Part shown: piece after piece, positions 15,265 to 27,000 of the stretch | Position numbering within the stretch: the stretch's first letter is position 1 | How the letters are laid out: each line of letters starts with the position of its first letter | Source: Terriglobia bacterium | GTDB lineage: Bacteria > Acidobacteriota > Terriglobia > JAIQFV01 | Length of the DNA: 34,151 nucleotides | Assembly (NCBI GenBank): GCA_020072965.1 | Contig: JAIQFY010000053.1 | Location: forward strand, 1 to 34,151 | Direction: 5' to 3' | Translations under genes and position numbers: made by a program | The notes under the pieces: model-generated | Seen by the model: the letters and a program-made list of their open reading frames with translations, nothing else | Told to the model about the DNA's origin: nothing | Database searches by the model: none

Positions 15265-15376
15265 CGTGCACTTCTTGCAAAAGTTTTCTACATCAAGTAG
15301 TATGCTGGTCGCTCCGGCGATGTGGGCCTGTAGCTCAGTTTGGGAGAGCGCTCCGACGCGTCGGAGAGGTCGTGGT
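15265..15376 (+). repeat. 112-bp direct repeat, left copy (promoter plus 5' tRNA-Ala half)
   Basis: This block and 15690-15801 are equal in length and mostly identical. Each contains a promoter, a short leader and the first half of a tRNA-Ala-like sequence, breaking off just inside the T-arm. The pair flanks the GIY-YIG gene as long direct repeats. Confidence 0.9.
15275..15303 (+). promoter_or_regulatory. Sigma-70-type promoter, left copy
   Basis: TTGCAA and TAGTAT are separated by exactly 17 bases and the -10 box ends 20 bases before the tRNA-like sequence, so transcription should begin about 12-14 bases upstream of it. It is copied at 15700-15728. Confidence 0.75.
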
Positions 15377-15384
15377 GAATCCCC
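15324..15384 (+). pseudogene. tRNA-Ala-like 5' half with abnormal anticodon arm, copy 1
   Basis: The acceptor 5' strand (GGGCCTG), TA, and full D-arm are identical to the intact tRNA-Ala at 15832. The 17-nt anticodon arm is replaced by a 16-nt perfect palindrome (CTCCGACG and its complement), so a normal 7-nt loop cannot form. The variable region AGGTC and GTGG of the T-arm remain; the rest of the T-arm and the 3' acceptor strand are missing. It cannot be a functional tRNA. Confidence 0.85.
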
Positions 15385-15422
15385 TGAATTAAGATCCGAA
15401 CATCCCCCCTTCTATCTTACCC

Positions 15423-15683
15423 ATGCATTTCGTTTACATCCTTGAGAGTCTGAAGGACGGGTACTACTATATCGGTTCAACCCATGACGTAGCCCATCGC
15501 CTCGAGCAGCACAATGCAGGGAGGCAGGCCGCAACGCGTTACCGCAGGCCATTCGAGTTAGTTTACGTAGAATCCTATTCGGATCCAGCGGCCGCACGCA
15601 GGCGGGAGCATTTCATCAAGAAGCAAAAGAGCCGTCTTTTCATTGAGGCTCTGATTCATTGCCCTCGGGCTGATCGGCCCTGA
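15423..15683 (+). CDS. Small GIY-YIG nuclease domain protein
   Basis: The 86-aa protein is a stand-alone GIY-YIG domain. GIY is VYI at residues 4-6 and YIG is 16-18; R26 (HRLEQHN) and E62 (RRREHFIKKQ) match the conserved Arg and the metal-binding Glu. GIY-YIG domains cut DNA in homing endonucleases, UvrC and some restriction enzymes; the small single-domain group to which this belongs has no settled function. There is no clear ribosome site before the ATG. It starts 39 bases after a tRNA-like 5' half that has its own promoter, and is bounded on the other side by a second copy of that promoter and half-tRNA. This suggests a mobile or homing-like unit targeting the tRNA gene (inference). Confidence 0.85.
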   Translation: MHFVYILESLKDGYYYIGSTHDVAHRLEQHNAGRQAATRYRRPFELVYVESYSDPAAARRREHFIKKQKSRLFIEALIHCPRADRP

Positions 15684-15699
15684 AACAACCGTGCACTTC

Positions 15700-15728
15700 T
15701 TGCAAAACTTCCCTACATCGAGTAGTAT
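15700..15728 (+). promoter_or_regulatory. Sigma-70-type promoter, right copy
   Basis: TTGCAA, 17 bases, TAGTAT, as in the left copy. The spacer differs at several positions while both boxes and the spacing are kept. It probably drives the second half-tRNA and the intact tRNA-Ala that starts 103 bases further on. Confidence 0.75.
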
Positions 15729-15748
15729 GCTGGTCGCTCATGCAGCGT

Positions 15749-15800
15749 GGGCCTGTAGCTCAGTTTGGGAGAGCGCTCCGAGGCGTCGGAGAGGTCGTGG
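15749..15800 (+). pseudogene. tRNA-Ala-like 5' half, copy 2
   Basis: As in copy 1, the 5' acceptor strand and D-arm are intact. The anticodon arm is the short CTCCGAGG..CGTCGGAG type, with one change that breaks the perfect palindrome, and the sequence stops matching tRNA after GTGG of the T-arm. Confidence 0.85.
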
Positions 15801-15831
15801 TCAGTTGCTGGAGCTTAAAGTCAAGTCGTGT

Positions 15832-15908
15832 GGGCCTGTAGCTCAGTTTGGGAGAGCGCATGACTGGCAGTCATGAGGTCGTGGGTTCGAGCCCCATCAG
15901 GTCCACCA
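15832..15908 (+). tRNA. tRNA-Ala, anticodon GGC, CCA encoded
   Basis: A full cloverleaf can be drawn. The acceptor stem pairs GGGCCTG with CAGGTCC and has the G3:U70 wobble that is the alanine identity element. The D-arm is GCTC/GAGC; the anticodon stem CATGA/TCATG closes the 7-nt loop CTGGCAG (anticodon GGC, codon GCC). The variable loop is AGGTC, the T-stem GTGGG/CCCAT holds TTCGAGC, and A73 and CCA follow. It has no promoter of its own directly upstream and probably relies on the one at 15700. It is the only intact tRNA in a row of six tRNA-like sequences. Confidence 0.95.
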
Positions 15909-16308
15909 TTTAAAAGCAAAGTCCAAATCCCAAACCTCCAAATTCCAAATAAATCACAAATTCCAAGGCTCCACTCCCCTTTTTCCACAGGAGAGCGCTC
16001 CGATGGGTCGGAGAGGTCGTGGGTTCGAGCCCCATCAGGTCCACCATTTAAAAGCAAAGTCCAAATCCCAAATCTCCAAATTCCAAATAAATCACAAATT
16101 CCAAGGCTCCACTCCCCTTTTTCCACAGGAGAGCGCTCCGACGGGTCGGAGAGGTCGTGGGTTCGAGCCCCATCAGGTCCACCATTTAAACGCAAAGTCC
16201 AAATTCCAAATAAATCTCAAATTCCAAGGCTCCACTGCCCTTTTTTCCACGGGAGAGCGCTCCGACGGGTCGGAGAGGTCGTGGGTTCGAGCCCCATCAG
16301 GTCCACCA
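15909..16308 (+). repeat. Tandem array of tRNA-Ala 3'-half units (138, 138 and 124 bp)
   Basis: After the intact tRNA come three units. Each has an AT-rich low-complexity spacer (built from CAAATTCCAAATCCC-like words and ending CTTTTTCCACA) followed by a tRNA 3' half with encoded CCA. The 3' halves are 15990-16046, 16128-16184 and 16251-16308; the last spacer lacks 14 bases. Each half begins at GAGAGCG of the D-arm and carries the same abnormal 16-nt anticodon arm (CTCCGAnGGGTCGGAG) as the 5' halves, then a perfect T-arm and 3' acceptor strand. None has the 5' acceptor strand, so none can be a working tRNA. Confidence 0.9.
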
Positions 16309-16315
16309 ATTATGA

Positions 16316-16336
16316 AATTCGGGACAGTCCCGAATT
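16316..16336. terminator. Hairpin, possible weak terminator of the minus-strand operon
   Basis: A 9-bp perfect stem (AATTCGGGA/TCCCGAATT) has a CAG loop. On the minus strand it lies about 90 bases after the stop of the SPOR-like gene and is followed by a T-poor run (TCATAATT), so termination is plausible but weak. Confidence 0.4.
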
Positions 16337-16424
16337 CCGGTCTGAGGTTTCCGAATCTGTCATGTCCGTGGTCGTCCCTCATCCTGCTTTTCAAGAGGGT
16401 CCAGCCTGTCTTCCGAATGGTCAG

Positions 16425-17108
16425 CTATCGCAAGAAGTTCTGCCCCCAGTCTTCTTCTCGCGCGAAATATGCACCCGTCGCACGTCCGGTCTGCTTCAAT
16501 GATACGGTCAGTCTATATGCTGCAGTAAACGAACCGTCCTCGAGAATTGCCAGAGCATAAAATCCATTTGGAGCTTTGTATATCGCCATGTTCGAAACAC
16601 CGTATTCAGCAACCCAGCTGTGGGAAAACAGCCTGAGACTCTCGAGATCTTTTGTTGATTTCACAATAGTAATCCATCGGCGGTTTTCTCTTAGGCTTCC
16701 GACGGCCGGGAAAGACGAAGATAGGTTCAGGAGCTTTTTGTCCAGTTCATCGAGCATCATTCTGACACCGATGAGAAGCTTGACCACCTCCTTCGGTCGA
16801 TCTTTGGTTTCTTGGGATTCGATGAAAAGTTCTAATCGTCTTGTGACCGTTATGATGTCGGTCAGCCTATTCCCCGCCTCATCCATCTCAGTATGTATGC
16901 GATCGGCTTCTTTTTTCAGTTTCTTCACACTGTCTTCAGCCGTCAAGACTTTCTCCCTGGCAACACGGAGATACCAGCCTGTCCAGACTACCAACACTGT
17001 GGCAACAACTATAGGAAGCAATGTATAAAGCAGTGCTCTCCGGCGAATACGTTTCTCCCGTTGTACTGCTTTGTCAATCTCCTCCCTGATTATGTCTGAT
17101 GAACTCAT
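16425..17108 (-). CDS. Single-pass membrane protein with coiled coil and SPOR-like end
   Basis: The 227-aa protein has a short basic cytoplasmic part, one membrane helix (about 26-46, LLYTLLPIVVATVLVVWTGW), a charged coiled-coil-like stretch (about 50-85) and a C-terminal domain. The pattern WITIVKS, then YKAPNGFYALAI, then GAYFAREEDWGQNF recalls SPOR-type domains, which bind denuded peptidoglycan, but the match is by pattern only. The ATG at 17108 is preceded by GGGGTGAGGTGG; a GTG at 17114 is also in frame. It starts a few bases after the upstream membrane protein gene ends, so the two form an operon. No close family is recognised; an envelope role is inferred. Confidence 0.6.
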   Translation of the reverse strand: MSSSDIIREEIDKAVQREKRIRRRALLYTLLPIVVATVLVVWTGWYLRVAREKVLTAEDSVKKLKKEADRIHTEMDEAGNRLTDIITVTRRLELFIESQETKDRPKEVVKLLIGVRMMLDELDKKLLNLSSSFPAVGSLRENRRWITIVKSTKDLESLRLFSHSWVAEYGVSNMAIYKAPNGFYALAILEDGSFTAAYRLTVSLKQTGRATGAYFAREEDWGQNFLR

Positions 17109-17115
17109 ATCCACC

Positions 17116-17499
17116 TCACCCCAGAGCGACTTTCTTCAAGGTTTCCCACACCAGCGAATCTATTTGCTGTTTTTCTGATTCAGATGCCTTGCTCACCTGA
17201 ACCTGAAGACTCCTATAGATGTTGAACCTATCTTTACACGCGTTAAGTTCCTTCAATGGAAGAAGGCTCACACTGGAGACAAATCCGCCTGCTATGCTCA
17301 TAATTGTTTTCATGGGTTCACCCGCCACATTATGACCAAACAGCAGCATGAAGATCACGAGAGTTAGGCCAAGACAAAAGACAGCGGACGCCAGGAAGAT
17401 GTACAGGCGAATTGCCCTCCGTTGATTTGCAACAAGTACATCCAGTTCTTCTATCGTATCCATGTCATCAACTGCCTTGAAAGTGCGCTCAATCGGCAT
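17116..17499 (-). CDS. Small two-helix membrane protein of unknown function
   Basis: In this 127-aa protein residues about 32-55 (LYIFLASAVFCLGLTLVIFMLLFG) and 66-83 form two membrane helices, with polar ends predicted on the same side. The layout, with a charged N-terminal helix, two helices and a C-terminal helix that looks oligomeric, resembles small 2-TM modules used as pore or sensor parts in some bacterial conflict systems. I cannot assign it to a named family. No good ribosome site precedes 17499; an alternative ATG is at 17463. The downstream SPOR-like gene follows within a few bases, so the products probably act together at the membrane. Confidence 0.55.
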   Translation of the reverse strand: MPIERTFKAVDDMDTIEELDVLVANQRRAIRLYIFLASAVFCLGLTLVIFMLLFGHNVAGEPMKTIMSIAGGFVSSVSLLPLKELNACKDRFNIYRSLQVQVSKASESEKQQIDSLVWETLKKVALG

Positions 17500-18082
17500 C
17501 CATCAACGTTCTAAGTGCCCAACTATTGTTTTAGCTGTATTGGATTCCGAGGAGTTGAAAAGCAAACCCTGTAAATTTTGTAAGCGAATCCAGGAAGAGT
17601 CAAAACGTCCCTCCCAAGCTGTCCGCCGAATTGCGAGTCCCCCGGCCGCCGCAGTTCAGCATTGGGGGGGTAAATCATGGTTGCACTGAAATTCCTACAT
17701 CCCGAAAGTTCCCCTTAAGGCGGGAATGTGATTGACCCACTTGAACAAACTCATCCCCGCAGGGATCGCCAAAGTCCCAGACCCTACAGATCAAAGTCGT
17801 CGGCTGCACAGTTCACCTTGGCAAAGTTTAATCGGGTAGTGGGATGATTGAATTGAAATCCTCGAATAGCCAGCCGATCGGAACAACATCGGGGCCGATC
17901 CAGGGGCGGTTGGCCCCAAGAAGTATAGAACTCGCGGAAGCTCAAATCAAGCTTATCCAAACACGCGAAGTTGTCCGAAGCCCAGCCTGAATGGCCTCCG
18001 GTTCATTGCCATAACGGACGAATTATTTCGAGGCGGGGGATACTCGGCGAGACGATCCGAAATGCCCCTTCGTAATAATGAC
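17500..18082. other. Gene-free stretch upstream of the membrane module
   Basis: No coding region is supported on either strand. There are no repeats that I recognise apart from a G-run near 17665. The part nearest 17500 should hold the promoter of the membrane protein pair. The rest may be decayed sequence. Confidence 0.4.
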
Positions 18083-18343
18083 GAGGGTCACATCTTCGCA
18101 TTTTGCAATTGGTGGGGCAAACTTGGAATACGACGAAGCGATGATGGAACACCGCGAGGGATGGTTGCCTGGTTTGGGAAAGCAGGAGGAGGCATGGGCA
18201 GGTCAGTGCCGACACCAGCAATCGGCCCCAGAGAGAGAAGTTGAGTTCGGGGGGGCGCACCTACTTTGATTCTCAACTTTGCCCCTGCACTATACAAAGA
18301 CACGGTGACCCTGCGAAATGCAAAATGCGAAGATGTGACCCTC
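18083..18343. repeat. Element bounded by a 25-bp perfect inverted repeat
   Basis: Bases 18083-18107 and 18319-18343 are exact reverse complements (ends GAGGGTCACATC; inner part TTCGCATTTTGCA). They enclose about 210 bases with no convincing gene. A diverged copy of the right end lies at 19405-19437. The GGGTCA..GCATTTTGCA type of sequence reminds me of repeats around REP-associated (Y1) transposases, but no transposase is present. It could be a non-autonomous element. Confidence 0.7.
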
Positions 18344-18863
18344 TACATACTCTACATACTCGCACGGCGGTGAGGACTACCGCATCCTGGATGCGCGCAG
18401 CAAGACCGACTAACGAGATGTCATCGGTCTGATGGGCTGCGGCGTGGGCGGCCGCAGTGAGCCGCGCCACGGTCCAATCGGGCTGTGTATCAAGCAACGC
18501 CTGCGAAAGCGGGTCACGTCCAACAGGCAGCAGCTTGCCTTTGTGTTGTGGCCGACCATACAGGGAGGCGGAGGTGACCTCTAAGAGTCGCTGGAACTCC
18601 CGTAACGAGGCTACCGCCGGTGTGCGGCTCTCATCGACCTTTTGAAGCGCTCTGACCAGGCGAAAGTACTCGGTCAACTGCTGATCCTCGGCGTAGTACC
18701 CCTCTACGGGCACGTCCGCTGGGTTCACGTGTAGTGCGGCTGCGACGTCTCGCGCACATGCGGAAAGCTCCCCACGCTCATGTTGCTTCATTGCGTCCCG
18801 GTAGAGCTTGTCCAAGCCTAGCAAGAAAACTCGGTTGTCTACGACACACGCATTGGTGAACAT
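18273..18863 (-). CDS. Unknown protein in an integron-cassette-like position, 3' end altered
   Basis: The 196-aa reading frame is not recognised. Residues 1-165 look like a genuine, mostly helical soluble protein. From about residue 170 the frame runs into the inverted-repeat element (18319-18343), so the natural C-terminus and any downstream attC of this cassette have been lost. The ATG at 18863 has GGGAG seven bases upstream and lies 16 bases after a GTTAGGC core, the expected spacing for a gene at the head of an integron cassette. Promoterless cassettes are normally read from an upstream integron promoter; no integrase gene is in the window. It may therefore be silent. Confidence 0.55.
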   Translation of the reverse strand: MFTNACVVDNRVFLLGLDKLYRDAMKQHERGELSACARDVAAALHVNPADVPVEGYYAEDQQLTEYFRLVRALQKVDESRTPAVASLREFQRLLEVTSASLYGRPQHKGKLLPVGRDPLSQALLDTQPDWTVARLTAAAHAAAHQTDDISLVGLAARIQDAVVLTAVRVCRVCRGSHLRILHFAGSPCLCIVQGQS

Positions 18864-18879
18864 GAGACACTCCCAATTG

Positions 18880-18954
18880 GCCTAACGGTTCGCGCTCACC
18901 CGCGGCCGCACTGCGTCGAGTGCGGCGGTCGTCGGGTACAGCGCGGTGTTAGGA
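18880..18954 (-). other. attC-like integron recombination site
   Basis: Read on the minus strand the site opens with TCCTAAC and closes with GTTAGGC, which fits the RYYYAAC...GTTRRRY core boxes except for the outermost base. Between them the arms pair imperfectly (CGCGCT, ACCCG and GCCGC blocks with their complements) around a CTCGACGCAG loop, giving about 75 bases, a usual attC size. A gene begins 16 bases after the GTTAGGC. Confidence 0.65.
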
Positions 18955-19184
18955 ATAGAGCTCCGCAGTCGTATCTGGCAAGGGCCGATCGAGACCAAAT
19001 TGCTGCGGTACCGCCTGCCATGTTGCTATGCCAAGAAAACCGCGAGCGATTGCGGCGTGTTCCTGGACGCCGCGGTGGGGAAAGCTCTCACGAAGCCCTT
19101 TCTCGGACAGCGCCGATCTGGCTGCCTCTTGCCAAACAGCTGGGGCGTCACACCGATCGGGATGATTTTTGAGACCTGGCGCCA

Positions 19185-19310
19185 TCATGCTACCCCGAAG
19201 GGGTCATATTCTATAGCCCAGGGTTGGCCGCCTTGCGGCCTACCCTGGGTCATGGTTGTTTCCCATGGAGGTTTTACCCTGAAGGGGTTACGTAAACCAT
19301 GACGGCCCCG
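19185..19310. repeat. Structured palindromic intergenic repeat
   Basis: Three hairpins lie in a row: ACCCC-GAA-GGGGT (19192-19204), a long one pairing CCCAGGGT/ACCCTGGG and GGCCGC/GCGGCC around CTT with one T-T mismatch (19217-19249), and CCC-TGAA-GGG near 19277-19286. CATGGTT near 19251 can also pair with AACCATG near 19295. Such arrays make spurious open frames on both strands. The rest of 18955-19442 contains nothing I can support as a gene. Confidence 0.7.
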
Positions 19311-19404
19311 AAACCGCTTTGAAGTTTCACAACCCCCCGCACATCCGACTGTTATGCACAGGCGGCTATGTCATAAATTGTGCAGCAAACCCTACCTATG
19401 CTAC

Positions 19405-19437
19405 CGCTGAAATGTAGATTGCGAAGATACGACCCCA
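19405..19437 (+). repeat. Diverged copy of the 18319-18343 repeat end
   Basis: AAATG, TGCGAAGAT and GACCC blocks align with the right end of the inverted-repeat element in the same orientation, with several substitutions. It lies just beyond the 3' end of the exported unknown gene. Confidence 0.5.
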
Positions 19438-19442
19438 ATGAA

Positions 19443-20225
19443 TTACCCGGGCCAACGCGGGCTCGCCAGATCAATCCTCCAGACCGGCCCTGCTGCGACG
19501 AGCGACCCCTCAAACCTCACGAACCCTGGAACCCCATCCGTCACGATCCACACGTTGGAGTCCGGCGGCATTCGCCCTGATATCTTTGCCATAAGCCTGA
19601 GCCAGATTCCCAGCCGGGGCTTAAACACATAACGGGCCGTGGATCTCGGGAATCCGCCTACCCACACCTTCTGTTCGCCCGCCGGCGATAGGTCCAGCGG
19701 GATGATTCGGGGCGCCGGCGTGAAGGCGACAATGTGGACCGTCTCGGCGCCTTGTTTGGGCAGGTTCTTCGCCACGGTGAGGACCATGCCGTTGTAGACA
19801 TCGGCGGGCAGGTCGAGCGTGCCTTCATGAATCTCCTCCCGACCATCCTTGTGCCTTTTAGTCTTGACGCGATACTTTCCGGAGGCTCGCTGTAAACTAA
19901 TTTCGGTGTCCTCGCTGAACGAGCTTCCACGCTCGACAAGACGGTATCTTCGCATAGTGAAAACGCGCTGCTGGGTGAATACCACCGTTTCGTCGAACAA
20001 CGAGCCGTCCTTGAAGTGGAACACCATGCGGCTCTCCACCTCCGGGCCCCGCGTGACCTGGAGAAGATCGCCCGACGCAATCAGAACGCCTTCGGTCGAG
20101 CGCACCTCCAGAAATCCGTGGACGGAGCCTTCGCCGAATCGCACCGGAACCTGGTTTGCGGCGACCACCCCCGGCCACAACGACAACGCCCCGGCAATCA
20201 TGAAGACCAACACCCACCGTTTCAT
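19443..20225 (-). CDS. Exported protein of unknown function
   Basis: The 260-aa product starts with a signal peptide (MKRWVLVFMIAGALSLWPGVVAAN). The mature part is rich in beta strands: GSVHGFLEVRSTEGVLIASGDLLQV, FHFKDGSLFDETVVFTQQRVFTMRRYRLVERG, and a middle part with EGTLDLPADVYNGMVLTVAKNLP. The pattern resembles secreted domains that bind lipid or polymer, but I do not recognise a named family. The ATG at 20225 has GAGGT upstream and opens the signal peptide; a longer frame from 20579 is not credible. It stands alone. The stop codon is close to a degenerate repeat at 19405-19437, but the protein appears full length. Confidence 0.65.
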   Translation of the reverse strand: MKRWVLVFMIAGALSLWPGVVAANQVPVRFGEGSVHGFLEVRSTEGVLIASGDLLQVTRGPEVESRMVFHFKDGSLFDETVVFTQQRVFTMRRYRLVERGSSFSEDTEISLQRASGKYRVKTKRHKDGREEIHEGTLDLPADVYNGMVLTVAKNLPKQGAETVHIVAFTPAPRIIPLDLSPAGEQKVWVGGFPRSTARYVFKPRLGIWLRLMAKISGRMPPDSNVWIVTDGVPGFVRFEGSLVAAGPVWRIDLASPRWPG

Positions 20226-21032
20226 GAGTGACCTCAAGCTCAAGCGCCAGGGACGCACCCTCGTGTTTTCGCCGAGTCGCATTCCTCGTTCTTCTATCAT
20301 ATCAATTAGGGAGGATGCGATCGGGACATAACCGGTTGCCAACAATCTTCTTCCGGGACCATGTGAAACCGAGCAAGTTGCTGGGGTCGCATCTCCAAAA
20401 TCCCTCTTTGGCGGCGAAGGATTGCGCTTGGGTGTACATAAAAACCAAGTCGTGAGGAGAGGACGCGCCGGTAGGTGGATTGACGATCCAAAAAACGGAT
20501 GGGGAGGGATGCAACTGTCCCGGTCTTCACACAAATTCCAACGAAACGACGAGGCGCACGGCTGGAAGCCTCGATTCATCGGATCGTGATTCTCGTGCAG
20601 GACTAAAGCCTACCGCCCCGTTAACGGGACGCTGCAAGAGAATCAACCCCGATGAATCGGCGTATCTGCTCCAAGGGGGGATCGCTGCCCGCCGGTGAAC
20701 CGGCGGGCTGTACGATGGCAAGTCCGCTGAAGCGGACTCCAGACCGGCCAATTGTCAGAAAAAGGGAAATTCTTAACTTCGCGACATTGGGGATGTCTTG
20801 CGGATCTTACAGGGAGGCGTGTGCTTCTAGCGCATTCTTCATCGATTCCCAAATAACGAACCATCTTGCAAATGTGGCCTACCTCTAAATTATCGTGTTT
20901 GGGAAGAGACCGATATGTTCTTTGGTTAGACATAATTACACGAGAATGGGTAGCCATTCTCAAGGTGTAACCGGGAGCGCAATTGTTGAGTTAGGCGAGA
21001 ACCTCTCTGAAGGGAATGGATTTCGACACAAC
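20226..21032. other. Long gene-free stretch with a palindrome cluster
   Basis: Apart from the hairpin cluster at 20610-20740 I find no gene with a ribosome site or a recognisable protein. Short frames around 20300-20560 and 20760-20960 look random or decayed. Confidence 0.45.
20610..20740. repeat. Cluster of four hairpins with TGAA/TTAA loops
   Basis: Four perfect palindromes lie in order: CCCG-TTAA-CGGG (20617-20628), CCGA-TGAA-TCGG (20649-20660), an 8-bp stem CCCGCCGG around TGAA (20688-20707), and AGTCCGC-TGAA-GCGGACT (20721-20738). Stem sequences all differ while the loop stays T(T/G)AA. The start of this cluster recurs at 21476-21520 and the same style at 31311-31462. Confidence 0.75.
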
Positions 21033-21365
21033 CTATGCCGCTTTCGCCAAGACAAACGTATCCAACACGTTGTCGCTAGCCTGAAATCGCTGATCGACGT
21101 CCAGCCGCATGACACTCATTGCTGATGGGCGCGTCTCGGGCGCTTCCTTTCGCAGATCACTAAATGGTTTCTCGATCGTCACAGCGTCAGTCCGGATTTC
21201 CTCGACTGCTTTTTCCCAGCGTTCCTCTTCTTTAGAGTCTGGCTCTTGATAGAAACGGTTGACCTCATCCCTGAATGAGTCAAAATCCTTGGATTCGGAT
21301 GCAACATCGTAGAGGACTTCTCTGTATCTATTGCGGAAGCGCAGATATGCTTCTTCTGGAGTCAC
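21033..21365 (-). CDS. Small unknown soluble protein
   Basis: The 110-aa protein is very rich in charged residues and predicted helix (AYLRFRNRYREVLYDVASESKDFDSFRDEVNRFY, then KEEERWEKAVEEI). No domain is recognised and there is no signal peptide or membrane segment. I choose the GTG at 21365 because GGAGG lies about five bases before it; a TTG at 21380 opens the same frame further upstream but without a site. It lies between two palindromic repeat clusters in a decayed region, so expression is uncertain. Confidence 0.45.
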   Translation of the reverse strand: MTPEEAYLRFRNRYREVLYDVASESKDFDSFRDEVNRFYQEPDSKEEERWEKAVEEIRTDAVTIEKPFSDLRKEAPETRPSAMSVMRLDVDQRFQASDNVLDTFVLAKAA

Positions 21366-21475
21366 GCCCACCTCCGACAACCTGAACTCCGCTCAGCCAT
21401 ACAATTTTTGCATTTAAGACAAAAGACGGGCACCCCTGATGCAACGGGTCCGACTCTTGGGCGAGAATCAACTCC

Positions 21476-21520
21476 GACGTCCCGTTAACGGGACACGGCA
21501 ACGGAATCAACCCCGATGGC
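21476..21520. repeat. Partial second copy of the 20610 palindrome cluster
   Basis: CGTCCCG-TTAA-CGGGAC is followed by GGAATCAACCCCGATG, which matches 20615-20653 closely, but the remaining hairpins are absent. It abuts the glycogen phosphorylase scrap and supplies the last codons and the stop of that chimeric frame. Confidence 0.7.
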
Positions 21521-21658
21521 CTCAGTGATTGTGTGAGCGAGCGCCGGATTTGCGAGCAGCAACCACCGTCGCGGCGTGACTCCTCTCGTCTTGTTATTGA
21601 AACGCTCCGGAAACATCTCGGCCAGGTCCTTCACTGTCGTCGTCCGCAGCAATTCTGA
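21511..21658 (-). pseudogene. Glycogen phosphorylase fragment
   Basis: About 48 codons match the middle of glycogen phosphorylase: [19 protein letters not shown] and then [19 protein letters not shown], one of the best-conserved blocks of the family (Asn of FNNKTNG replaced by Arg here). A full enzyme has about 830 residues, so this is a small scrap. It continues in frame from the acetate kinase fragment, and both ends are abrupt: one at the ackA join, one at a palindromic repeat. No function is expected. Confidence 0.75.
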
Positions 21659-21899
21659 GGCCATCCACTGCACGAGGCATTCCAATGACGCTGAAATGTC
21701 GGGAAGCGAGGCTGTAAACTTCTCCCTCAGCCCCTGGCCCATCTCGACCGCGATGATCGTTTCCCCTCCGATTCCGCTCGATCTGCCCACGGCACAAACG
21801 GTCATCACTGTTCTGTGCAATCCGGCCAAGGTCCGTGACGATCAGCTGGAACCTCAGACTGGAGCTTCCCGAGTTAAGTACGCGGATGTTGATCGGCAC
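21659..21899 (-). pseudogene. ackA: Acetate kinase N-terminal fragment, frameshifted
   Basis: From a GTG at 21899 the frame opens with the acetate kinase signature strand [16 protein letters not shown] and continues to RLCRGQIER. There an extra A (near 21772 on the plus strand, within CGGAATCGG) shifts the frame; removing it restores [18 protein letters not shown] and on to [11 protein letters not shown]. Only about 80 of some 400 residues are present before the sequence passes into glycogen phosphorylase. It lies directly downstream of phosphoketolase, as an ackA gene should, since acetate kinase turns the acetyl phosphate made by phosphoketolase into acetate and ATP. Here that step is lost from the locus. 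Confidence 0.8.
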
Positions 21900-21993
21900 T
21901 TCAGAGACCTATCGTTTCCATCGAGCGCGATGAACATAAACTGCACTTCGGCCGGTCCGACGCGCCCCACGTTCAGGCAATAGTTCGGAATAC

Positions 21994-24429
21994 CTAGTAT
22001 GGCCACTTCCAGCCGGCCACGTCCGGCTTATCAGTCCCATGCGCGAAGGCGTAATTCCGGCATAGAATCTGCTCATTGCGGAATTTCTCCATGGCGTGGG
22101 CTCCGATTCCCTGGAGTCTCGAAACACGTTTAATGACGTCCATCGCCAGGCTGAAGCGATCGATCTCGTTCTCGATCGCTAACTCCAGAGGTGTATTGAT
22201 GTTCCCTTGCTCCTTGTAACCGCGGACGTGCATGTTTTGATGGTTCGTGCGGCGATATGCCAAGCGATGGATGAGCCACGGATATCCATGGAAATTAAAG
22301 ATAATTGGCTTATCGACGGTGAAGAGCGAATCAAAATCCCGATCGGACAAGCCATGAGGATGTTCCGTAGTTGGCTGCAACCTGAAAAGATCAATCACGT
22401 TGATGTAACGGATCTTGAGGTCAGGAAACTCCTGTCGTAGCAGGACAATGGCAGCCAGAGTTTCCTGGGTGGGTATGTCCCCGGCTGAAGCCATCACCAC
22501 ATCCGGTTCGGTGCCCTGATCGTTACAAGCCCAATCCCACATGCCAATCCCCTTGGTGCAGTGTGTAATCGCCGCCTCCATGTCCATATATTGAAGGTGT
22601 GACTGCTTGTCGCAGACGATTACGTTGACGTAGTTCTCACTCTTCAGACAGTGATTGGCCACGGACAAGAGAGAGTTGACGTCAGGAGGCAGATAAATAC
22701 GTGTTACAGCAGCACTCTTGTTGACGACCACGTCCAGGAAACCAGGGTCCTGGTGGGTGAAACCATTGTGGTCCTGTCGCCAAACAGTGGAGGTGACTAG
22801 CATATTCAGCGACGCAATCTTTTCGCGCCATGAGAGGTGATTGCAAATGGAGAGCCACTTCGCGTGCTGGTTGAACATCGAATCGATGACATGGATAAAC
22901 GCCTCGTATGACGAAATGAAACCATGGCGCCCCGTGAGCAGGTAGCCTTCGAGCATGCCTTCAACGGTGTGCTCACTCAGCATCTCCATGACTCGGCCAT
23001 CAGGAGCGAGGTCCCCACCGTCCGCATCTTCCGGAAAGTAGTCAGCAATCCAGAACTTCTTGCTGACTGCATAAATATCATTCAGCTTGTTTGACGTGTT
23101 TTCGTCCGGCCCGAAGACACGGAAGTTCTTCATGTTCAGCTTCATGACGTCTCGAAGGAACGCACCTAACGGACGAGTGTTTTCTGCTTCCACAGTCCCG
23201 GGTTTCTCAACCTTCAAGGCGTATTGCTGGAATTCCGGAAGGCGCAGAGCCTTCTTCAGCTGTCCTCCGTTGGCGTGGGGGTTGGCACCCATGCGCCGTG
23301 CACCCGTCGGTGCAAGTTCTTTCAGTTCCGAGATCAATCTTCCGCCTGGATCAAAGAGTTCTTCTGGCTTGTAAGCGCGCATCCAGCTCTCCAGCTCGCG
23401 AAGCCGTTCTGGATTCTTTTTGACGTCCGCCAAAGGAACCTGATGCGCCCGCCAGAAGCCCTCCAACCTGTGGCCATCGACTTCCTTCGGAGCGGTCCAG
23501 CCCTTTGGAGTCCGCAATATGATCATAGGCCATCGAATTCGCTCAACCACCCCTGTCTTCCGTGCGGCCTGCTGCTGTTTCCTGATTTCGGAAACACAGT
23601 GCTCCGTCGTCGCCGCCATCGCTTGATGCATGCTCTCGGGGTCAGAGCCTTCCACAAAGTAAGGTGTCCAGCCGTAGCCCCGGAATAGGCTTTCCAGTTC
23701 TTCGTGACTAATACGCGCGAGGAGTGTGGGGTTATTGATTTTGTAGCCGTTCAGATGCAGCACCGGTAGGACCACGCCGTCGCGGATGGGGTTGAAGAAC
23801 TTATTGATGTGCCAGGAAGTTGCCAGAGGTCCGGTTTCCGATTCGCCGTCCCCGACTACGGCAGCAACAATCAGGTCTGGATTATCAAAAGCGGCGCCGC
23901 AGGCATGCGAGAGCACGTACCCAAGCTCTCCTCCTTCGTGGATCGAACCGGGTGTCTCCGGTGTACAGTGACTTCCGATGCCGCCGGGAAAGGAGAATTG
24001 TTTAAAAAACTCGCGCAGACCTTGCTCATCTTCGCTCTTATCTGTATAGATTTCGGAATAGGCCCCTTCTAAATAAAGTGGAGCGAGAACCCCGGGAGCG
24101 CCATGCCCGGGTCCGGTCAGGAAGATCATGTCCAAGTCGTACTTCTTGATGAGCCGGTTGAGGTGTATGTAAGTGAATGCCAAGCCAGGGCTCGCCCCCC
24201 AGTGTCCCAGCAACCGGTTCTTGATGTGCTCCGCCCTCAGGGGCGCTTTCAGCAGGGGATTGTCTTGCAGGTAGATCATACCCAGCATCAAGTAGTTACA
24301 GGCGCGCCAGTAAGCGTGGGTCTTGCGCAATTCTTCGGCGCTGAGAGGCATTCCTGAAACGGTAGATCTTGCTGAGCCGTATGCGCTCAGGGGATTGCTC
24401 GCTTTTTCGGCTGCTACATTGGTTGCCAT
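21994..24429 (-). CDS. xfp: Phosphoketolase (xylulose 5-phosphate/fructose 6-phosphate)
   Basis: This 811-aa enzyme cleaves xylulose 5-phosphate (and often fructose 6-phosphate) with phosphate to acetyl phosphate plus an aldose phosphate, using thiamine diphosphate. It is full length for the family. Visible motifs are GHWGASPGL (75-83), GPGHG (106-110), IHEGGELGY (163-171) and the cofactor motif GDGESETG (193-200) with the later N of [11 protein letters not shown]. The C-terminal part has [12 protein letters not shown]-like [15 protein letters not shown]. The ATG at 24429 lies seven bases after AAGGAG; a GTG at 24435 is in frame. Downstream is a broken acetate kinase gene, so a normal xfp-ackA pair was once here. 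Acetyl phosphate must now be used by phosphotransacetylase or an acetate kinase elsewhere. Confidence 0.93.
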
Positions 24430-24690
24430 ATTCACGCTCCTTCGCCAGATTCACTGCCACAAAAAAACTCATCGCACCCCGGACAACAATAACCCTCAAC
24501 TGTGGCAGGGCTCTCCGGGTTCTTCGCTGAAACTCATGATCCAGAGAAGCCACTCGCCTGGCGTCCGTTGGGGCGAACCCAAAACTCAATTCCTGTAGCT
24601 TAGCTCCGCTCTCAATTCACTCCAATTCCGCTGAAATCATACACTGGTGAGACTCTTTTAGCAGCGCTGAAGAATCGCGACAACTAGGAA
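24430..24690. other. Upstream region of phosphoketolase
   Basis: No gene is supported. The phosphoketolase promoter should be here, but I could not settle on one. The segment ends where an insertion-sequence remnant appears to begin (CTAGCCCGGATTTCTCACC near 24697). Confidence 0.4.
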
Positions 24691-24696
24691 AACCCC

Positions 24697-25243
24697 TAGC
24701 CCGGATTTCTCACCACACGCCTGAACCACCGGTTTGATCTCGGTTCTGACCTGAACCGGCTCGTCGGGGAGCGGTGTGGCGCCGGTCTGTTGACAAGGGG
24801 CGTCGTTTTCGGGGAGAGGTCCGCTGTAACCGCTTCATTTCATGCCGGGGCGAGCAGTGGAGCGACAGACTTTCCCTTGTGGATATTTCCTTGCGACCAG
24901 GCCTCGAATCGTGCCCTCCCTTTCAGCACCGCAACGGCGCCGCCTGTAACTGGGCGTAGACGTGCGCGAACAAGGCTTGATACGGATACCCGCCCGCCAG
25001 CGCTCGTCCCCGATCGCGCTCCCGCACGCGGCGCTCTCCGGTCGGATCCGCCTTCTCCACCTCCCGCAGCAACAACCCGCCCCCATCACTCGTGATGGCT
25101 CCACCCTCAAAGCTACCCCTCACCTCGCGCTGATTTAGGGGATGAAATTCCAAGCCACTTTGTTTACAATCTGTCTCCATTAGGCTGTCTCCTGTTCGTG
25201 GCACATCTTTTTCTCGCAAAAAAACTTATGCCACAAGAGACAG
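24697..25243. mobile_element. Remnant of an IS1380-family insertion sequence
   Basis: The transposase N-terminus at 24923-25180 marks this region as IS1380-like. CTAGCCCGGATTTCTCACC near 24697 resembles the CCCGGATT-type ends I associate with this family. At the other side CTGTCTC and GTGGCA (25185-25203) pair with TGCCAC and GAGACAG (25229-25243). Most of the roughly 1.6 kb of a complete element is missing, so it has suffered a large internal deletion. It lies directly against the 5'-truncated atpD gene. The exact ends are uncertain. Confidence 0.55.
24923..25180 (-). pseudogene. IS1380-type transposase, N-terminal fragment
   Basis: The frame starts with METDCKQSGLEFHPLNQREV and then RGSFEGGAITSDGGGLLLREVEK, the characteristic opening of IS1380 transposases, with AGGAG eight bases before the ATG at 25180. 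After about residue 46 the sequence no longer follows the family, and the frame stops at 85 residues instead of about 450. The DDE catalytic residues are absent, so it is inactive. Confidence 0.7.
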
Positions 25244-25254
25244 CACTTTTCAGT

Positions 25255-26311
<1,057 letters not shown>

Positions 26312-26374
26312 AGCTTGGATTTTGAACTCGGGACGTTGAAGGACGAAAGGCTTTCACGCGACACACGGTGGGAT

Positions 26375-26785
26375 ATGGCCAACACGTTGAAATTTGAGAT
26401 TGTGACGCCGGACGCCACAGTTTACTCCGCCGAAGTGGAATCGGTCATTCTGGAGGGGGTAGAGGGCCAAATGATGATTCTCCCCCAACATGCCCGGTTA
26501 ATTACGCAATTGGTGCCCGGCGAAATGGTTGTACGAAGAGCGGGCCATGATGAATTTCTGGCTGTCGGCGAAGGCCTTGTGGAGGTCACCGGGGAACACG
26601 TGGCCATCGTGACGGATATGGCGGTTGCCGCCGAAAGCATCGATGAAGCCAAAGCTGAAGAAGCGCGCCAACGCGCCGCCGCCCGCCTGGCCGAAAAACT
26701 CTCTTCAGAAGAAGTCGCTGCTGTCAATGCCAGCTTAGCTCGCTCATTGGCGCAATTGCACGTCAAGCGACGTCCCCACAAATGA
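26375..26785 (+). CDS. atpC: F1 ATP synthase subunit epsilon
   Basis: The 136-aa epsilon subunit links the rotating shaft to the c-ring and can inhibit ATP hydrolysis. The N-terminal beta sandwich opens LKFEIVTPDATVYSAEVE and contains GQMMILPQHARLITQLVPGEM, the usual GxxGxxPxHxP-like loop with A and Q at variable places; the C-terminal part (SIDEAKAEEARQRAAARLAEKL) forms the two-helix arm. Length is normal. The ATG at 26375 is preferred because the product begins like family members; an open frame from 26315 adds 20 unrelated residues. It follows atpD by 63 bases, the standard order at the end of an atp operon. With atpD truncated, expression and use are doubtful unless another atp operon exists. 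Confidence 0.88.
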   Translation: MANTLKFEIVTPDATVYSAEVESVILEGVEGQMMILPQHARLITQLVPGEMVVRRAGHDEFLAVGEGLVEVTGEHVAIVTDMAVAAESIDEAKAEEARQRAAARLAEKLSSEEVAAVNASLARSLAQLHVKRRPHK

Positions 26786-26860
26786 TCTGCGGGGGGAACC
26801 CGAACCGTCTCGGCTTCACCCCCGCCTACAAACCACACAGACACACTGCTAAAGCGGACA

Positions 26861-27000
26861 CGGCTCGGAGAGGTCGTGGGTCCGAGCCCCATCGGGTCCA
26901 CCATTTCAGAGCAAAGTCCAAATTCCAAATCCCCAAAACCCAAACAAATCCCAAATTCCAGGGAAACCTCATATTCCAAGTCTCCCCTCCCGCTTTTCGC
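26861..27000 (+). repeat. Distant copy of the tRNA-Ala 3'-half repeat with AT-rich tail
   Basis: CTCGGAGAGGTCGTGGG and on through CCA (26864-26903) match the 3' halves at 15990-16308, with T-arm changes (TCCGAGC, CATCGGG). The following bases repeat the same low-complexity words (CAAAGTCCAAATTCCAAAT and so on). The anticodon arm is mostly gone. Nearby, 27030-27100 carries another low-complexity type built on CATCCGCGAAATCTGCGGAT. Confidence 0.85.

Follow-up and report, generated by a model that had tools for sequence, protein, structure and literature searches.

We analysed a stretch of 34,151 nucleotides from a Terriglobia bacterium (contig JAIQFY010000053.1), hereafter called the window. 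At 15265-16308 it holds an array in which two 5' and three 3' partial copies of a tRNA-Ala gene flank an intact tRNA-Ala, and a GIY-YIG nuclease gene lies between the two 5' copies. The features are as follows.

15265-15323, plus strand: leader copy 1, with TTGCAA at 15275-15280, 17 nt, and TAGTAT at 15298-15303; part of the 112-bp repeat shared with 15690-15801
15324-15350, plus strand: 5' partial copy 1, tRNA positions 1-27, exact match
15351-15366, plus strand: palindrome CTCCGACGCGTCGGAG, replacing the anticodon arm
15367-15375, plus strand: 5' partial copy 1, tRNA positions 45-53
15423-15683, plus strand: GIY-YIG nuclease gene, 86 aa
15690-15748, plus strand: leader copy 2, with TTGCAA at 15700-15705, 17 nt, and TAGTAT at 15723-15728; recognised by the direct repeat and by leader conservation
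15749-15800, plus strand: 5' partial copy 2, with tRNA positions 1-27, palindrome CTCCGAGGCGTCGGAG (15776-15791) and tRNA positions 45-53
15832-15908, plus strand: intact tRNA-Ala(GGC), Rfam score 64.4 bits
15990-16046, plus strand: 3' partial copy 1, with the end of the D arm, palindrome CTCCGATGGGTCGGAG (15998-16013) and tRNA positions 45-77
16128-16184, plus strand: 3' partial copy 2, with the end of the D arm, palindrome CTCCGACGGGTCGGAG (16136-16151) and tRNA positions 45-77
16251-16308, plus strand: 3' partial copy 3, with the end of the D arm, a palindrome (16260-16275) and tRNA positions 45-77
about 26862-26903, plus strand: decayed 3' partial copy, with the remainder of a palindrome and tRNA positions 45-77

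The preliminary description of this DNA had claimed one intact tRNA-Ala(GGC), and ARAGORN and Rfam agree that there is exactly one, at 15832-15908. By exact matching, tRNA positions 1-27 were located at three sites in the window (15324, 15749 and 15832) and positions 45-77 at four (15876, 16014, 16152 and 16276). The partial copies had been described as half-tRNAs; their positions and numbers were right, but they are not plain halves. In all partial copies of the array the tRNA sequence stops exactly at position 27 and restarts exactly at position 45, and the anticodon arm (positions 28-44, CATGACTGGCAGTCATG) is exchanged exactly for a palindrome, CTCCGA-N4-TCGGAG. Because the palindrome takes precisely the place of the anticodon arm, the 5' copies consist of positions 1-27, the palindrome and positions 45-53, and the 3' copies of positions from about 20 to 27, the palindrome and positions 45-77. 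The earlier count of three 3' copies holds for the array but misses the decayed copy farther downstream. We compared the palindromes with those of two related species, one of the same genus (G001) and one of the same family, the Terriglobia (Acidobacteriota) MAG JAQUPQ01 (G002). The 6-bp stem was identical in all Ala copies but one, which has a C-to-T change, and the loops of 4-5 nt varied (CGCG, GGCG, TGGG, CGGG, TGCA, TGGTA, CGGTG and CCCGG). A constant stem with varying loops looks like constraint on the stem.

Within the array, the leader with the promoter-like TTGCAA-N17-TAGTAT is present only on the two 5' copies. The intact tRNA-Ala(GGC) itself lacks a leader, and its transcription would thus start from the second leader. 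The duplicated promoter claimed earlier stands as a promoter-like leader on both 5' copies, although a formal promoter scan omits these sites, since 8 of their 12 bases match. We propose them nevertheless because two paralogous tRNA loci keep them in their leaders: the same hexamers and spacing are found in the tRNA-Ala(CGC) leaders of the window genome (G000) and of G001. The tRNA-Ala(GGC) gene was the single one found in the genome, the remaining Ala genes being CGC and TGC, so that the array sits on an apparently essential single-copy gene.

The 3' copies are tandem units of 138 and 124 bp that include an AT-rich spacer, which is part of a repeat dispersed through the genome. Units of this repeat resembling CAAATTCCAAAT lie at 15909-15989, 16047-16127 and 26905-26980 in the window and at about 40 places in the genome, often as inverted pairs no more than a few hundred bp apart, in intergenic DNA and beside some tRNAs. 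Immediately 3' of the array, at 16318-16334, is a palindrome of REP-like look, TTCGGGACAGTCCCGAA, which has six sites in the genome against none for a reversed control pattern. The tRNA-Ala 3' halves are separated by about 10.5 kb (16309-26862) encoding a phosphoketolase, a phosphorylase fragment and ATP synthase beta/epsilon. The right border of this region matches G001:C21, and the tRNA-Ala(GGC) of G001 is followed by an apparent recombinase gene; the region is possibly an old island. At the other end of the window, positions 1-51 on the minus strand are the terminal part of a group II intron (Rfam RF02001), truncated by the contig edge.

The reading frame between the 5' copies encodes a GIY-YIG domain (PF01541, E 1.9e-17), as had been claimed. 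Residues Y16, G18, R26, E62 and K66 are invariant in a 47-row alignment and Y5 and H30 nearly so, and the protein has the conserved Tyr, Arg, His and Glu of the GIY-YIG superfamily. Typical homing enzymes carry a DNA-binding domain separate from the nuclease domain, whereas the AF2 model of the 86-aa protein is one GIY-YIG domain (pLDDT 93) in which such a second domain is absent. The predicted fold is nearest to those of the branched-DNA nucleases HIGLE and SLX1, followed by UPF0213 and I-TevI, and the best PDB sequence match of the family profile is to the small UPF0213 GIY-YIG proteins (1ZG2 and 1YWL), which likewise have one domain. NCBIfam assigns no family to the window protein. The dN/dS ratio was 0.08-0.28 in three close pairs of nuclease genes, and on this sequence evidence the genes are under purifying selection. 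None of six members of a sister clade of small GIY-YIG genes (L063, L065-L068 and L076), which we take to be YhbQ-like, was near a tRNA. The window genome also has two tandem GIY-YIG genes of a different clade (L036, G000:C78:5200-9000), with no tRNA near.

The nuclease gene is flanked by 112-bp direct repeats (15265-15376 and 15690-15801) that are 91% identical, far above chance. The preliminary description had reported these repeats and had taken them for the footprint of a duplication made by insertion, with empty sites to be sought in related genomes, and both points were borne out. The nuclease gene is found at tRNA-Ala(CGC), not GGC, in G001 and at both in G002. In all four cases in the window, G001 and G002 the order is the same: leader, tRNA 1-27, palindrome and positions 45-53, then the nuclease gene, then leader and tRNA. 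Both the window and G002:C90 have an extra palindromic copy ahead of the intact tRNA. The latter locus has four 5' units in a row upstream of the nuclease gene and one downstream, and each palindromic unit upstream has its own leader. The tRNA-Ala(CGC) locus of the window genome (G000:C11) is the empty counterpart of the occupied locus G001:C43, with synteny on both sides; the two differ by about 444 bp, and the leader and tRNA positions 1-53 are doubled at the occupied site. The GGC locus, in turn, is empty in G001 (G001:C20), where it is syntenic with the window locus and lacks the nuclease gene. A textbook homing element destroys its own cut site by inserting. The working tRNA-Ala(CGC), however, is identical at the occupied and the empty site, and since the insertion leaves it unchanged, the textbook rule does not hold within the tRNA.

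To place the array in a wider setting, GIY-YIG loci were collected from relatives and from named genomes, the latter searched with a profile built from a 5-member alignment; the loci come from more than 12 phyla, and 94 were usable in this first sample. A tRNA or tmRNA gene lay within 500 bp of the GIY-YIG gene at 64 of the 94 loci. The density of tRNAs was 3.9 per kb at 0-50 bp from the gene against about 0.03-0.13 per kb at 1-4 kb, and all 73 tRNAs within 200 bp were on the strand of the nuclease gene. About one-third of the relatives in this sample had no tRNA within 500 bp; some of them lie at contig ends and some among protein-coding genes. Two more samples were drawn afterwards. In Bacteroidota, a phylum with a strong match in 87 of 198 genomes, a tRNA or tmRNA gene lay within 500 bp at 22 of 29 loci, and in a broader Acidobacteriota sample that included distant relatives the number was 10 of 29; all were on the same strand in both. 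Partial copies of the neighbouring tRNA were present at 42 of 60 GIY-adjacent tRNAs, and 33 of these carry a palindrome absent from the tRNA. At control tRNA-Ala loci, from which the window locus and G002:C90 were set aside, there were none (0/30). An assembly artefact was ruled out because the isolates Algoriphagus and Aquiflexum show the same structures. The viral contigs searched gave no relative, and the one annotated phage relative examined, that of Rhizobium phage Y65, has no annotated tRNA adjoining it. Among the collected loci, L072 combines intron-like sequence and a disrupted GIY-YIG frame in a tRNA-Leu(CAA) region, and L169 has a group I intron upstream of the GIY-YIG gene.

The units are about 0.3-0.45 kb in size and their palindromes are mostly of the types TCCCGA..TCGGGA or CCCCGC..GCGGGG. 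In the 5' type, to which the window's family belongs, the palindromic copy lies upstream of the nuclease gene, and the layout is leader with tRNA 1-27, then palindrome, positions 45-53 and nuclease gene, then leader with intact tRNA. Insertion of this type evidently duplicates the leader and the first half of the tRNA and leaves one tRNA intact. In the 3' type, seen in most other clades, an intact tRNA, often with its terminator, is followed by the gene, a D-arm remnant, the palindrome, tRNA positions 45 to the end and a repeated terminator; insertion here is evidently the mirror image, placed after the tRNA. In several 3'-type units the nuclease frame runs at its end into D-arm or palindrome sequence, for example with ...ASR-stop in L053, L070 and L071, so that the tRNA-derived core belongs to the unit. 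Of 30 loci assessed in the first sample, 16 had precisely the anticodon arm replaced and 5 precisely the D arm, these 5 all being tRNA-Pro. In Bacteroidota, 18 loci have a palindromic copy, of which only 4 show exact replacement of the anticodon arm, and clade-specific intervals there include Asp 51-58 and Cys 39-56. We therefore dropped the notion that the palindrome always replaces a whole arm exactly, and arm-exact replacement is a clade-specific detail. The palindrome occupies an internal tRNA interval that is specific to the clade and is often a whole arm. The unit is best explained as a single-domain GIY-YIG gene of about 80-90 codons together with a short tRNA-derived core bearing a clade-specific palindrome.

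The isotype of the tRNA tracks the nuclease clade (30 changes on the tree, where 300 shuffles gave 38 or more), and so does the class of palindrome (5 changes against at least 9 in shuffles), on a tree of 85 columns with poor resolution. The clades cross phyla, with Pro units in Bacteroidota and Nitrospirota and Val units in Bacteroidota and CPR; such isotype-faithful clades spanning phyla are as expected for horizontal transfer that is faithful to its target. In Algoriphagus, almost every genome sampled carries the tRNA-Asp together with its terminator, and most of them have no nuclease match; one has an apparent decayed remnant of a unit. Two loci of sister species, L174 with two units and L176 with one, differ by one 358-bp tandem unit, and G422 carries tandem triples with spacings of 317 and 323 bp. 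These observations are best explained by units that vary in tandem number, cross phyla mostly within one isotype and are able to degenerate into tRNA fragments with a palindrome.

Taken together, these data suggest that the array is probably a resident member of a family of selfish units, minimal and mobile, for which tRNA genes serve as hosts. This agrees with the preliminary description, which had proposed a selfish unit that targets tRNA and spares one working copy, and whose call for a search for enrichment at tRNA genes is answered by the three samples above; the partial copies and empty sites support the same reading. Three other explanations were weighed against it. The first holds that the nuclease is directed by structure, recognising folded stem-loops as cruciform or single-stranded hairpin DNA and swapping the palindrome for an arm, with tRNA, tmRNA, RNase P RNA and rRNA genes as targets. 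The exact replacement of the anticodon arm at 16 and of the D arm at 5 of 30 loci would fit this. So would GIY-YIG genes that we found within other structured RNA genes: one RNase P RNA gene of Paceibacterota (L160:3763-4348) and two acidobacterial 23S rRNA genes (L257 and L246) each hold such a gene, which occupies the loop of an inverted repeat of 14-18 bp. Furthermore, rRNA insertions with GIY-YIG in CPR are reported to be non-introns, and rRNA insertions to lie mostly at the tops or bases of stem-loops (PMC11270868), and the predicted fold is closest to branched-DNA nucleases. Likeness of fold, however, proves no function, replacement is often not exact to the arm, as in Asp and Cys, and the fidelity of clades to isotypes indicates that sequence matters besides structure, so we consider this explanation rather unlikely.

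A second explanation works at the level of RNA: the palindromic tRNA fragments would be expressed as structured RNAs and would control or block the nuclease, in the manner of the RNA arrays of type III toxin-antitoxin systems, or would act as tRNA decoys. The row of 5' palindromic units with their own leaders upstream of the gene in G002:C90 is in its favour, and so are stems that are kept while loops vary. But the units range from one to five in number and lie on either side of the gene, upstream or downstream, and the GIY-YIG enzymes known are DNA nucleases; we regard this explanation as quite improbable. The last, that the nuclease gene is a bystander with no role of its own, caught in unequal crossing-over at recombination-prone tRNA genes, was the alternative named in the preliminary description and could account for tandem partial copies without an intervening gene (the 3' copies in the window, the 5' units in L139), but it leaves the strong enrichment, the complete strand bias and the isotype fidelity unexplained, runs against the purifying selection on the nuclease gene and the lack of such copies at 30 control tRNA loci, and is largely refuted and hardly credible.

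The proposed selfish unit can be set beside several known systems. The nearest is SegB of phages T4 and T6, a free-standing GIY-YIG homing endonuclease found near tRNA genes of many isotypes (PMC13096335); it is reported to cut inside tRNA genes and to cause tRNA and nuclease gene to be amplified in tandem (PMC13096335 and 2008 work cited there). The two are alike in having a single GIY-YIG gene beside tRNA genes of many isotypes, in tandem amplification and in the puzzle of how self-cutting is avoided. SegB is phage-borne with reported cleavage, whereas the window group is chromosomal and single-domain, forms isotype-faithful clades and encodes a predicted nuclease; tRNA copies bearing a palindrome are a feature of the window group and are not mentioned for SegB in the available part of PMC13096335. 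Like a free-standing homing endonuclease, the gene lies outside any intron or intein (Rfam finds no intron at the unit, and the reading frame stands alone between tRNA copies) and adjoins its presumed target, tRNA genes, in three samples; unlike one, its 86-aa product is modelled without a separate DNA-binding domain. Rfam finds no group I intron in the window, so that the unit is not a group I intron homing element.

Other systems share single traits with it. The GIY-YIG-encoding insertion sequences of CPR rRNA, which are non-introns (PMC11270868), and 23S rRNA intervening sequences resemble it in that a GIY-YIG gene sits in a structured RNA gene but not in an intron. They lie inside the rRNA, however, whereas the window unit duplicates part of the tRNA gene and keeps an intact, uninterrupted copy. 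Elements with tyrosine recombinases at tRNA 3' ends also make partial tRNA duplications that preserve function; the window units differ in having no recombinase, a size of about 0.4 kb, duplications on the 5' side too and a palindrome in the copy. The GIY-YIG reading frame was the only one in the units read, and there was no recombinase Pfam match among the window reading frames tested. REP/RAYT systems likewise tie repeated palindromes to a nuclease-type gene, which is a Y1 transposase there and a GIY-YIG gene here, where the palindromes are embedded in tRNA copies. In the literature searched on GIY-YIG and tRNA, palindromes and RNA-gene insertions, and on palindromic tRNA copies by themselves, which included few subscription journals, the near precedents were SegB and the CPR rRNA insertions only. 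The tRNA-associated group of probably selfish nucleases is very widespread and apparently undescribed.

The array is thus best read as a chromosomal, SegB-like selfish nuclease unit that would target tRNA genes. We infer both the cleavage of DNA by the nuclease and the role of the palindrome. In the mechanism that we propose, the nuclease would break the target tRNA gene, the palindrome or both. One broken end would then copy the unit from a donor by way of a short stretch of tRNA homology that adjoins the palindrome. Rejoining of this copy to the sister chromosome would take place outside the tRNA promoter or terminator, and this would account for the survival of one working tRNA. By analogy with what is reported for phage SegB, breaks in the palindromic copies may drive tandem amplification. 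The unit would work as free-standing homing endonucleases such as SegB do, yet it misses or leaves in doubt some of their defining features, and a categorically new mechanism is possible. Tentatively, and with more doubt than assent, we also put forward that the units may be minimal transposable elements of a wholly new class. A structure-specific GIY-YIG nuclease would move by taking out one arm of a structured RNA gene (tRNA, tmRNA, RNase P RNA or 23S rRNA) and putting a palindromic hairpin in its place; in tRNA genes it would duplicate enough of the target to keep one functional copy.

If our reading is right, the tRNA genes of many bacteria carry tiny nuclease parasites that have been read as stray GIY-YIG genes and tRNA fragments. 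The units would then give rise to pseudo-tRNA arrays and to tandem amplification of tRNAs, and would be a chromosomal equivalent of phage SegB. They would also offer a simple case of a selfish nuclease that invades an essential single-copy gene without killing it.
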